A stretch of DNA of 64,000 bases from Lysinibacter sp. HNR (lineage in GTDB: Bacteria > Actinomycetota > Actinomycetes > Actinomycetales > Microbacteriaceae): assembly GCF_029760935.1 (NCBI RefSeq), contig NZ_CP121684.1, positions 310,001-374,000 of the forward strand, written 5' to 3'. The position numbers and the translations under genes were made by a program. The notes under the pieces are model-generated. The model was not told where the DNA came from, searched no databases, and saw only the letters and a program-made list of their open reading frames with translations. Shown one piece after another: positions 26,633 to 30,422 of this stretch (position 1 is the stretch's first letter; every line of letters begins with the position of its first letter).

Positions 26633-26966
26633 CTCAGTCGTTCTCGAACCAGAGCTCACCTTTCCTGGTGAGGTTCTTGAAGGCGACCCGAGGATGACGA
26701 TTGGTGAGATTTGGGAGTCTGCAGACCGCACCCAGTGGCGCGGTATCTGGCAGGTCGAGCCGGGGAAGTTCACCTGGACATTCCCCGGAGACGAGTTTTT
26801 CGTAGTGACCTCCGGTCACGCCACCGTCGAACGTGAGAATGGTGAACCGCTAGAGCTGGTTGCCGGGATGGTCGCCATTTTCAACCCAGGAGACGTCACC
26901 ACTTGGACAGTGCACGAAACTCTTCGCAAGGCACTGCATCTCGGCGGCCTCCCCGAGACTGCCTGA
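26583..26966 (+). CDS. Cupin-domain protein
   Basis: 127 residues from ATG 26583 with AAGGAGATAATC just upstream. A small single-domain cupin of the DUF861/EutQ-like type: IWESADRTQWRGIWQVEPGKFTWTFPGDEFFVVTSGHATVERENGEPLELVAGMVAIFNPGDVTTWTV. The first motif has F instead of a metal His, so metal binding is uncertain. Such proteins commonly sit next to HxlR regulators and NAD(P)H quinone oxidoreductases, as here. Function unknown. Confidence 0.8.
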   Translation: MSISSGINDVPFSVGVDSVVLEPELTFPGEVLEGDPRMTIGEIWESADRTQWRGIWQVEPGKFTWTFPGDEFFVVTSGHATVERENGEPLELVAGMVAIFNPGDVTTWTVHETLRKALHLGGLPETA

Positions 26967-27010
26967 TCACTGCACACGTTCCGACTAAAGACAGGAAGCG
27001 CAACGTAGAA

Positions 27011-27205
27011 ATGTCCACTAAACACGTCCTCGTAGTCTGGGAGCACCCTCGTACAAACTCACTCACCTCAGCAATTGCGGGTGACGTCATTGCAGAACCC
27101 ACCGTCAAAGGTCTAGAAGTTGATGTACTTGACCTCTATCGTGACTGTTTCAATCCCGTGCGGGCGACGGGATCAGAACGGTGTTACGAGCTCATCGGGG
27201 GATGA
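27011..27205 (+). pseudogene. NAD(P)H quinone oxidoreductase-like flavodoxin, N-terminal fragment
   Basis: 64 residues from ATG 27011: MSTKHVLVVWEHPRTNSLTSAIAGDVI...VDVLDLYRDCFNPV resembles the start of the KefF/NQO1-type flavodoxin fold (usually ~200 residues), then stops early at 27205. Remnant of an oxidoreductase probably once regulated by the HxlR protein. Confidence 0.6.
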
Positions 27206-27808
27206 GCGAGAGTCGCATGAAGCGAGCCGCGGAATGGTTCCTCACACTGAGAAGAAGACACACTCGACCGGTCATCCACTATCTTGTGCGATAAGCCCCT
27301 CTTTTAATACCAAGAAAGGAGCCGGGGAATGTTCCCCGACTCCCATCCTGCACCAAGAGGGTCTTGCAATCACTAATCGCTGATAACACTTTAAGCGTTC
27401 AACGTCCCACAAGAATATAACAGAATCATAACGGACACCAGTTATGGTCTTGTGATCTATCGATTTTCTCAGGGACCTCTCGGTTAGTGAGGAGCTTGGG
27501 GGTAAGACGTTGGAATCATCCCGAAGTAGGATGCCTCTGGTACGTTTGATTGATGTGGGGCAGGGTTCCCCGATGCTGAACTTAGTACTATGAATCTCTA
27601 CGCACCTGAACCAGCAGTCCAGGGTTCTGAGGCCCAGGCATCTAACCCAGCAAACATTGTATTCACCGGAATTGTCTCAATTGATGTAACCGATGTGTTC
27701 GGAGTGAACAATCCGGTACCCGAGTGACCGGGCAGGTTTTCACCGTATAAAACCGTGTGAAGAACGAGCAGACAGCGGGATAGGATTCTGGTCTCTTGAG
27801 GAGGAAAA
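27206..27808. other. Gene-poor stretch
   Basis: No gene I can support. There is an imperfect hairpin at 27318-27343 (GGAG.CGGGGA / TCCCCG.CTCC) without a T tract. A 45-codon + frame at 27590-27727 has no SD and no recognised relative. Confidence 0.4.
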
Positions 27809-28558
27809 CTAGAACAGATCTGGGCTGGGGGTGCTGCTGTGTCGGATTGATACGTCCGCGTGGCGGTCAAATCGATAACCTACGCCACGAACCGTGCGAA
27901 CGATGTCTTGGTAGTCCCCCAGCTTAACTCGCAGGCGTCGTACGTGAACATCAATGGTTCGTTCGCTGGGAATCTCCTCGTCTTTTGCATCGTCCCACAG
28001 CCCACTAATAAGTTCGTGGCGTTCTATCGTTTGGCCCTCGCGAAGCACCAAGAACTGAATTAGTTCAAACTCTTTGTAGGTGAGTGAGACGGGATTGTTA
28101 TCGAGCAACAAGCGTTTGCGGGAGAGATCGATGACAACACCGTCACGGGCGCGATCCAGATCGAGATCAACCTCGGGCTTGCGGTGGCGGGCAACTGCTG
28201 CCGGATCGCCGAGAGCAAGCCTCACAACGTCAACATCGCGACCACCCGTTTGTTCTGGGGCCAGTGCAACTGCCGCATAGGTTTCTGACCCGGGTGCAAT
28301 GTGGGCGGTGAGCTGCTTGAGAGCCTCAACAATCGCCCCGAGGGAGGTTTCTGCGTCTGCGGCTTTATCTTCGTCAAAGCCGACATAGAAGGCAAATCCC
28401 CTGGCTTCCGTTCCGGCGGGTACTGCACGGATGTTGGGGGTTGCTGGGGCGGGTGATGCGAGGTCGGGACGGGCGGAAGCTATGCTTTGTGGGCGGAAAG
28501 CCCTGGTTTTTTCGTGGGTGTGTGAAGTGGTCTGGGTGGTTGTGGTGATGAGTGACAT
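27809..28558 (-). CDS. Winged-helix (OmpR/PhoB-type) DNA-binding protein without receiver domain
   Basis: 249 residues. The N-terminal ~140 residues are low-complexity followed by an unassigned domain (ARGFAFYVGFDEDKAADAETSLGAIVEALKQLTAHI...TYAAVALAPEQTGGRDVDVVRLAL), not a phosphoreceiver. The C-terminal part is a PhoB-like winged helix (VVIDLSRKRLLLDNNPVSLTYKEFELIQFLVLREGQTIERHELISGLW ... RTIDVHVRRLRVKLGDYQDIVRTVRGVGYRF). This architecture is familiar from Microbacteriaceae. It is preceded by a 33-residue Cys-containing ORF with its own promoter and a ~200-nt leader, suggesting control by attenuation (inference). Confidence 0.85.
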   Translation of the reverse strand: MSLITTTTQTTSHTHEKTRAFRPQSIASARPDLASPAPATPNIRAVPAGTEARGFAFYVGFDEDKAADAETSLGAIVEALKQLTAHIAPGSETYAAVALAPEQTGGRDVDVVRLALGDPAAVARHRKPEVDLDLDRARDGVVIDLSRKRLLLDNNPVSLTYKEFELIQFLVLREGQTIERHELISGLWDDAKDEEIPSERTIDVHVRRLRVKLGDYQDIVRTVRGVGYRFDRHADVSIRHSSTPSPDLF

Positions 28559-28758
28559 GAGAAATCCTTAGAGGATGTGTTGAGACCGTTGCCTGGGTAC
28601 TACGGAGTAACCACACGGTGCTCAGGTGCTGTGCGAGAACGATATCTCGAGAAGGGGCAGCGTAACGCTGGACGCTAGATGCGTGGGGGTTCTCTTGTTT
28701 CCACCGCAGATCGGATGATACCGAAGGGGGAGTGTGAACCGGCAGCTGGGTAAGAGAG
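28559..28758 (-). promoter_or_regulatory. Transcribed spacer between leader ORF and winged-helix gene
   Basis: 200 nt without a gene. A small stem (CAGCG TTA CGCTG) occurs near 28647-28659. This spacer is where anti-/terminator or SD-sequestering folds would be expected if the leader ORF regulates the gene. I could not compute the folds. Confidence 0.35.
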
Positions 28759-28860
28759 TTAGCTGCACATTCGACAACACGGAACAACGTTACCGGCCAT
28801 CATCATGCCGGCAGTCCTGGGGGCCGCCGGGGCGATCAGGGCATACACGTTGTCAGTCAT
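28759..28860 (-). CDS. Leaderless Cys-rich leader peptide (33 residues)
   Basis: Minus-strand ATG 28860 to TAA 28759. The peptide starts MTDNVYALIAPAAPRTAG, has MMMAGNVV in the middle and ends PCCRMCS, so three of the last six residues are Cys. There is no SD, but a TTGACA-17-TTTACT promoter puts the expected transcription start on or next to the ATG, as in leaderless mRNAs, which are common in actinobacteria. In mycobacteria, leaderless ORFs with terminal Cys runs are known as cysteine-sensing attenuators. Position 200 nt before a regulator gene fits that model. Not tested. Confidence 0.6.
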   Translation of the reverse strand: MTDNVYALIAPAAPRTAGMMMAGNVVPCCRMCS

Positions 28861-28867
28861 GAATGAT

Positions 28868-28896
28868 AGTAAACCCAATATGTCGCTGTGTGTCAA
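28868..28896 (-). promoter_or_regulatory. Promoter TTGACA-17-TTTACT for the leader ORF
   Basis: Minus strand: consensus -35 TTGACA at 28896-28891, 17-bp spacer, -10 TTTACT at 28873-28868. The ATG at 28860 lies 8 nt past the -10, which is about +1. Confidence 0.65.
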
Positions 28897-29241
28897 GGGT
28901 TATGTTGCGTTGGCCTCGGTGGTGTAAGGATTTTTATTGCCTCATCGTTCTGTAATTCCGCGTAAAAACAGGGCTTTTGTCTGTTTTATGCTGGAAAAGT
29001 ATTTTTAGAAATTGCTTCTGGGGGAAGGGGTTTCGAGGTGTGACGGGTAGCTTTACGGCAAGAGGACGGGGTGTAGCCGAGACCTGGGTCATCGTTGATG
29101 AAAGTTGTACCCCGATTGATGATGCCACGGTGCCCGGTCGCTGGTGCCGAGGCTTAGCTGACGGCGTTGAAAGACGCCCGGTCGCTGCTGCCGACGCTCA
29201 GCCCACGGTGTTGAACGATGCGTGAATGACGATGCCGAAGC

Positions 29242-29877
29242 CTAATCGATGGTGCCGTAGAGGCGGTCCCCCGCGTCGCCCAAGCCGGGAACGATGTAAC
29301 CGTGCTCATTAAGGCGCTCGTCAACGGCACCCAGAACGAGCGTTACGTTACGACCCTCGGTCGTTTTACGAAGCCTCTCGATTCCCTCAGGGGCGGCTAG
29401 TACGCACACGGCAGTGACATCGTCTGCGCCGCGATCGAAGAGAAATTGAACGGCTGCCGCTAGTGACCCGCCCGTGGCAAGCATGGGATCAAGAACGTAG
29501 CACTGGCGGCCCTCGAGATTTTCGGGTAGCCGCTCCGCATAGGTGAGTGGCTGAAACGTAGTTTCATCCCGAGCCATCCCTAGGAAGCCCACCTCGGCGG
29601 TGGGCAGCAGCTTGACCATTCCCTCAAGCATCCCCAAGCCGGCCCGGAGAATTGGCACGACCAGGGGAACAGGGTGCGCGAGACGTACTCCCACGGTTTT
29701 ACGTACGGGGGTTTCGACCTCGATCTCTTCGACGATAACTTCGCGCGTGGCTTCGTAAGCCAGGAGGGTAACAATCTCCTCGATCAGTGCCCGAAACGTG
29801 GGTTGTGCTGTGTCTTTGTCACGGAGAACCGTGAGCTTGTGTGTGATCAATGGGTGGTCTGCAACAAAAACTCGCAT
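29242..29877 (-). CDS. upp: Uracil phosphoribosyltransferase
   Basis: 211 residues, the usual length. It converts uracil and PRPP to UMP (pyrimidine salvage). It shows [23 protein letters not shown] near the N-terminus, the PRPP-binding motif [17 protein letters not shown] and the C-terminal [16 protein letters not shown] uracil-site motif. Divergent from tadA. Confidence 0.96.
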
Positions 29878-29945
29878 AGAGTAAATCTAGTAGATTTTTT
29901 CCCTCGAGTTGATCAGCACACACAATTGGTATGGAAGAGGTTGCC

Positions 29946-30422
29946 GTGTCTCAGCCTGGAATAGCGGTGAGCCGTAGGTATCGAGGGTGGATGCTCGAGG
30001 CGTTGGAGGAGGCCAAACGCGCACTTGTCACGGGTGATGTTCCCGTTGGTGCCCTGATTTTTGATGTAAACGGTGTGCTGATTGGCTCCGGGCGCAATAT
30101 GCGCCAGGGCACATACGACCCAACCGCTCACGCAGAAGTTGTGGCGATCAAGCAGGCCGCACAGCATGTGCAAGATCGTGTCCTTGAGGGCTGCACTCTT
30201 GTGGTCACCCTGGAGCCGTGTGTCATGTGTGCGGGGGCAATCGCTACTGCGCGTATTCCTACGGTGGTTTTTGGTGCCTGGGATGAGAAGGCTGGTGCTG
30301 CGGGTAGCGTTTATGACGTGCTCCGTGATCGTCGTTTACCGCATCGCTCTGAGGTTATTGCGGGTGTAGAAGAAGACGCTAGTGCTGCTCTGCTCCGAGA
30401 GTTCTTTGCGGGGCAGCGCTAG
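29946..30422 (+). CDS. tadA: tRNA adenosine(34) deaminase
   Basis: GTG 29946 is chosen because GAAGAGG lies 5 nt upstream (158 residues); ATG 29931 is the alternative. Zinc deaminase motifs HAE (His62, Glu64) and PCVMC (Cys92, Cys95) are complete. The enzyme makes inosine at the wobble position of tRNA-Arg(ACG), which is itself encoded at 15669. ARIPTVVFGAWDEKAGAAGSVYDVL matches the TadA family. Its stop lies 27 bases before the stop of the convergent propeller gene. Confidence 0.94.
   Translation: MSQPGIAVSRRYRGWMLEALEEAKRALVTGDVPVGALIFDVNGVLIGSGRNMRQGTYDPTAHAEVVAIKQAAQHVQDRVLEGCTLVVTLEPCVMCAGAIATARIPTVVFGAWDEKAGAAGSVYDVLRDRRLPHRSEVIAGVEEDASAALLREFFAGQR

Follow-up and report, generated by a model that had tools for sequence, protein, structure and literature searches.

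A Microbacteriaceae-wide upstream reading frame with terminal cysteine codons as a candidate attenuator of a winged-helix regulator gene

Results and Discussion

In the window, by which we mean the whole 64,000-nucleotide stretch of DNA analyzed here, a short upstream open reading frame (uORF) ending in clustered Cys codons lies ahead of a gene for a winged helix-turn-helix (wHTH) regulator, and the same pairing recurs at nearly all of the Microbacteriaceae loci read. We consider it reasonably probable that this leader is a cis-acting, ribosome-mediated, cysteine-responsive attenuator of the regulator gene. Comparison of the sequences supports an anatomy like that of the polycysteine uORFs of mycobacteria, and we infer that the leader senses cysteine.

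The features of the locus are collected in Table 1. On the minus strand the order is TTGACA-17-TTTACT-ATCATTC-ATG, the uORF ATG has no Shine-Dalgarno (SD) sequence before it, three of the last six uORF codons are Cys, and the encoded peptide ends PCCRMCS. An earlier note on this DNA had described the layout (promoter, ATG, Cys codons, lack of an SD, 200-nucleotide spacer, and wHTH gene), and every detail of it was confirmed in the sequence. An automatic promoter scan of the window passed over the uORF promoter because the scan requires A at position 2 of the -10 element. The small ORF belongs to no family in Pfam or NCBIfam, Rfam gave no match in the region of the leader, and nothing terminator-like was found within positions 27600-29300 in a search for intrinsic terminators. 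Elsewhere in the window, two overlapping short frames on the plus strand (26903-27383) resemble one interrupted gene, possibly a degraded oxidoreductase.

Table 1. Features of the uORF-regulator locus, in window coordinates
Feature	Description	Position	Strand	Basis
Promoter	TTGACA (28896-28891), 17 nt, TTTACT (28873-28868)	28868..28896	-	sequence
Alternative -10	TACTAT, overlapping	28871-28866	-	sequence
uORF, very likely leaderless	33 codons plus stop, MTDNVYALIAPAAPRTAGMMMAGNVVPCCRMCS	28759..28860 (ATG at 28860)	-	sequence, profile, relatives
Hairpin a	uORF codons 9-13, stem nt 26-29/34-37	28824..28835	-	covariation
Hairpin b	GCCGGC-AUGAUGAUG-GCCGGU, uORF codons 17-23	28792..28812	-	covariation
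Cys-codon core	UGUUGUCGAAUGUGC (C-C-R-M-C), invariant CGA-AUG	28765..28779	-	relatives' codons, second family
Spacer	72 C and 40 G in 200 nt, candidate region for Rho loading	28559..28758	-	base counts
SD of regulator gene	AAGGA	28569-28565	-	sequence
Regulator	249 aa, wHTH, SD-led	27809..28558	-	PF00486
upp	conserved upstream neighbor	29242..29877	-	PF14681, synteny
tadA-like	tRNA adenosine deaminase, divergent from upp	29931..30422	+	deaminase Pfam matches, synteny

Conservation of the uORF

The regulator is present in 193 of 199 genomes of the family, representing 84 of 85 genera, and the upstream regions of 130 regulator loci were read. In 125 of the 130 loci a uORF before this wHTH regulator was called by an automatic rule that required CRM, CCR, or MM near the ORF end, so that those letters are partly selected for; after inspection the count stood at 128 of 129. 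Promoter position, reading frame, the choice of Arg and Cys codons, and N-terminal sequence formed no part of the rule. Among the five loci missed by the rule, L124, L127, and L128 carry divergent versions, L018 lies at a contig end, and L109 has no uORF. When 248 genomes of the order were searched with a uORF profile, an approach independent of regulator position, 18 of 18 Microbacteriaceae gave one significant match each (E-values 4.6e-17 to 4.4e-12), and the other families among those genomes gave nothing significant. A class-wide pattern, TGYTGYCGAATGYRYGS, excludes most family members, and its few class-wide matches are therefore uninformative. The earlier note had made its reading depend on conservation of the ORF in relatives that have the same regulator, and such conservation is found (125/130 loci). 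Judged from these sequences, the arrangement is not a matter of chance.

TTGAC stands 35 to 38 nucleotides ahead of the uORF ATG in 112 of 125 leaders, the -10 element ends 6 to 7 nucleotides ahead of the ATG in 110 of those 112, and an SD precedes the uORF in none of the 125, so that, from promoter spacing, the ORF is predicted to begin at or within a few nucleotides of the transcription start. The CGAATG core described below is in frame with the promoter-fixed ATG in 119 of 121 loci despite 18 distinct distances between the two, ranging from 9 to 54 codons, and no internal stop intervenes in the 121. The position of the -35 element, the lack of an SD, and the preservation of frame in uORFs of varying length make leaderless translation very likely, and conservation thus strongly supports the earlier proposal of a leaderless, cis-acting Cys-codon leader with +1 at the ATG.

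A Cys-Arg-Met core with constrained codons

As in leaderless polycysteine uORF attenuators, Cys codons are clustered near the stop, and among them lies a conserved core, UGY-CGA-AUG (Cys-Arg-Met). At least two Cys codons fall within the last nine in 122 of 125 leaders, with three as the commonest number (91/125), against a Cys background of 0.6 to 1.3%. The core Arg codon is CGA in 119 cases out of 119, compared with 12 to 15% of Arg codons in neighboring genes, and UGU accounts for 74% of these Cys codons, compared with a background of 21%. The Cys positions turn over between leaders (CCRMC, CACRRMCC, CTRMCCC, and CARMCCC), the number of Cys codons ranges from one to five, in certain leaders the third Cys gives way to Ser, His, Arg, or Pro, and the divergent leaders L124 and L128 have a single core Cys (RRRMCR and SRRMCR). 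The CGA and UGU bias, together with the retention of Cys through positional turnover, indicates that both the Cys cluster and the exact CGAAUG sequence are selected. The terminal Cys codons singled out in the earlier note are therefore conserved as a cluster, but the most invariant part of the leader is the Arg-Met pair CGA-AUG, not the three Cys.

The C-C-R-M-C chemistry and the richness of the peptide in Met and Cys suit an alternative, a metal- or redox-sensing micropeptide (CCxxC; the earlier note had raised a metal- or redox-binding one), or else a nascent chain that stalls according to bound metal or thiol state. A micropeptide would be expected not to be tied to one gene and to show constraint on amino acids rather than codons, and the leaders show the reverse: the uORF is single copy and always in cis ahead of one gene, its Cys and Arg codons are constrained at synonymous sites, its third Cys is replaceable, and its N-terminal two thirds are not conserved between families. 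The strict cis linkage and the nucleotide-level constraint disfavor this alternative, which we regard as very unlikely.

CGA is readable only by the tRNA-Arg with inosine at position 34 (ICG), and that inosine is made by tadA. The CGA codon might accordingly be the true sensor or a co-sensor, with the leader reporting inosine modification, or slow CGA decoding, beside the Cys codons; we hold this to be highly unlikely. Most Microbacteriaceae loci whose flank is long enough keep the order tadA, upp, uORF, and regulator, the name tadA for the divergent deaminase gene of the window being one that we take from general knowledge of the family. The same order was noted in the window (29242-30422), in L007-L035, and in L193-L199, bringing together the gene for the inosine modification and the uORF whose CGA needs it.

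RNA structure within the uORF and in the spacer

Two hairpins, a and b, lie within the uORF. Together they show 12 two-sided cells in 51 P-type leaders, against 1.6 in shuffles, and 11 in 17 A-type leaders, against 4.3, with 0 of 500 shuffles reaching the observed value in either set; because the shuffles keep kinship among the sequences, these covariation counts are to be read as support and not as a probability. For both hairpins, slid registers give lower pairing and covariation scores. The cells of hairpin b are paired in 99% of cases in A-type leaders and 97% in P-type leaders, and the three AUG codons of MMM fall in its loop or upper stem. Hairpin a of the window departs from the consensus on both arms, and its stem is still paired. 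The covarying hairpins indicate that the uORF is more than a peptide, and RNA conservation probably accounts for much of what looks like conservation of the peptide, MMM included.

Such covariation, together with a CGAAUG invariant at the nucleotide level, would also be expected if the leader were purely an RNA or DNA element, whether a structured 5' untranslated region or the operator of the regulator, and the ORF were incidental. That explanation does not account for an ATG fixed at the predicted transcription start or for an in-frame core (119/121) reached without internal stops, and it gains nothing from Rfam. Furthermore, with as many as two mismatches allowed, the core is no more frequent in the genome than a reversed control, and a role as a multi-site operator was rejected because this count gives no sign of a shared operator. 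An incidental ORF thus appears highly improbable to us.

Two pairings between the uORF and the spacer were considered and rejected as general features. Core-spacer pairing through UGUCGAAUG is strong in some lineages, with AUUCGACA next to the SD, and has a mean z of 0.38. Roughly 49 of 118 leaders could pair AUGAUGAUG (MMM) with CAUCAU(C) near the SD, and in the window itself such pairing is weak; AUGAUGAUG-CAUCAUC complementarity is striking in many relatives and reaches 12 bp. In leaders such as L015, L048, L049, L098, and L125, CAUCAUCAUG lies over the regulator start codon and is complementary to AUGAUGAUG across 9 to 12 nucleotides, and in other leaders CAUCAUC stands ahead of the SD instead. 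One subclade (L029, L034, L040, L044, L058, L062, L074-L079, L082, L096, L104, and L105) has a hairpin, GAAGGAUCAC-CCCUC..GAGG-CCUUC, just ahead of the regulator SD, the 3' arm of which offers an alternative pairing partner to the SD.

C exceeds G in all 118 leader spacers, with a mean C/G of 1.71; the median C/G is 1.04 in 75 other upstream regions from the window and seven relatives. A C-rich, G-poor region after the uORF is what a Rho-dependent leader would have, and the composition of the spacer fits Rho loading, making it a candidate region for that step. The calculated energy of opening the SD showed no consistent shift with a ribosome placed at the Cys codons, the CGA, or the stop, or with queued ribosomes.

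Cys-rich uORFs in other families and sulfur metabolism

Orthologs of the regulator (44 to 51% identity) in f6, another family of the order, are preceded by a GTG-start uORF with an unrelated N terminus, and at its end stands the same core, as CCRM(H/Q)A, encoded in nearly every case as UGUUGUCGAAUGC. In families f3, f9, f10, and f13, poly-Cys uORFs lie just ahead of cysK-cysE, so that within the order uORFs of this Cys-rich kind are linked to cysteine genes. Like the leader of the regulator gene, these Micrococcales uORFs have a Cys-rich C terminus, with CCRMCC in one and MMM...CCRTCR in another; they differ in that the target is biosynthetic, several have SD-like leaders, and, in those that were read codon by codon, the CCR motif uses CGC or CGT, the CGA constraint being absent there. 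Such uORFs were seen at L280, L275, and L277 (f10), at L260 and L265 (f9), at L266 (f13), and at L264, L269, L271, L273, and L246 (f3); they sit approximately 1.05 to 1.3 kb upstream of cysE, and in f10 an inverted repeat of the AGCGCTGGC...GCCAGCGCT type directly follows the uORF stop. No Cys uORF precedes cysKE or cysE in the host genome or in the other Microbacteriaceae loci examined. The host genome has cysE, and neither a PAPS reductase (PF01507) nor a sulfite/nitrite reductase (PF01077) was found in searches of it; most sampled Microbacteriaceae likewise lack both. A host without sulfate reduction would therefore depend on reduced sulfur.

Relation to known leaders

Passages in PMC9031893 (citing Canestrari 2020) and PMC4633059 describe cysteine-responsive leaderless polycysteine uORFs in mycobacteria. 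The present leader is like these in having a short ORF at a very likely leaderless 5' end, with a C-terminal Cys cluster, conserved before one gene, and is unlike them in its occurrence in Microbacteriaceae, its PhoB/GlnR-type wHTH target, its invariant CGA-AUG, its covarying in-ORF hairpins, its C-rich spacer of about 200 nucleotides, and the conservation also of its N-terminal part. In mycobacteria a Cys-rich leaderless uORF precedes Rv0485 (Shell 2015, PMC4633059), and Rv0485 is a transcriptional regulator (PMC6593118), so uORF control of a regulator gene is not new in principle. The suggestion in the earlier note that the mycobacterial principle extends to a transcription-factor gene thus holds as regards the target, but this extension is not wholly new. 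The new elements are conservation across the family, a CGA-AUG that does not vary, hairpins inside the ORF that covary, and the different regulator. The toiL uORF of topAI in Escherichia coli, which senses antibiotics, couples stalling to the structure of the ribosome binding site and to termination by Rho (PMC12121999) and offers a possible model for the output step.

A uORF in the leader of an actinobacterial transcription-factor gene is also found in the whiB7/wblC attenuator, from which the present leader differs in its Cys-rich end, its regulator, and the lack of a detected intrinsic terminator. A leader of the WhiB7 kind would respond to general translation stress: any slowing of the ribosome, by an antibiotic, amino acid shortage, or slow CGA decoding, would raise regulator expression, and cysteine would not be the specific signal. 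We judge this possible but doubtful. A CGA-AUG that varies less than the Cys codons, a use of both CGA and UGU far from background, and a transcription-factor target like that of the whiB7 leader (PMC13236596) all fit it, whereas the extreme Cys enrichment retained through turnover and the Cys-rich ends of the cysK leaders of the same order do not, and no terminator or antiterminator of the whiB7 type was found in positions 27600-29300.

The C-terminal domain of the regulator is a PhoB/GlnR-type wHTH, its PF00486 match is the sole Pfam match in the protein, and no receiver domain with a phospho-acceptor Asp was found. The DNA-binding domains of GlnR and PhoB are among the closest solved structures, with matches that cover the C-terminal domain only. 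The N-terminal domain (residues 50 to 130) is conserved; its fold is predicted with modest confidence and has no recognizable match. The related-locus search returned full-length orthologs from Microbacteriaceae only.

Conclusions

In the cysteine-responsive leader that we propose, transcription would start at the uORF AUG and ribosomes would enter without an SD, a step that is well supported. The in-ORF hairpins and the C-rich spacer would form a leader RNA whose state may be set by ribosome passage over the terminal Cys codons. Shortage of Cys-tRNA could slow or stall ribosomes at the UGU codons, with a queue over the short ORF, and the stalled ribosomes might alter leader folding, Rho access to the spacer, or both, and so change regulator expression. 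By analogy with mycobacteria, the likelier direction would be ON under cysteine shortage, and the regulator may in turn adjust the physiology of sulfur or thiols in bacteria unable to reduce sulfate.

This proposal draws on a family-wide uORF present in one copy per genome and always ahead of the same gene, on the Cys cluster with its UGU bias, the in-frame lengths, the covarying hairpins, and the C-rich spacer, and on the CCRM core in f6, the cysK-cysE uORFs, a host without sulfate reduction, and the mycobacterial precedent. Against it stand the single core Cys of L124 and L128, a CGA-AUG invariance for which cysteine sensing does not account, the inconsistent changes in SD accessibility, the missing intrinsic terminator, and the restriction of AUGAUGAUG-CAUCAU pairing to some of the leaders (about 49/118).

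This leader, found almost throughout a large bacterial family, is absent from Pfam, NCBIfam, and Rfam, and its invariant CGA-AUG and covarying hairpins are well-defined features open to direct tests. If the leader is cysteine-responsive, a transcription factor, and not just a biosynthetic operon, would be under the control of a ribosome-read cysteine sensor in these bacteria, and this would give a first indication of what a regulator carried by 193 of 199 genomes does.
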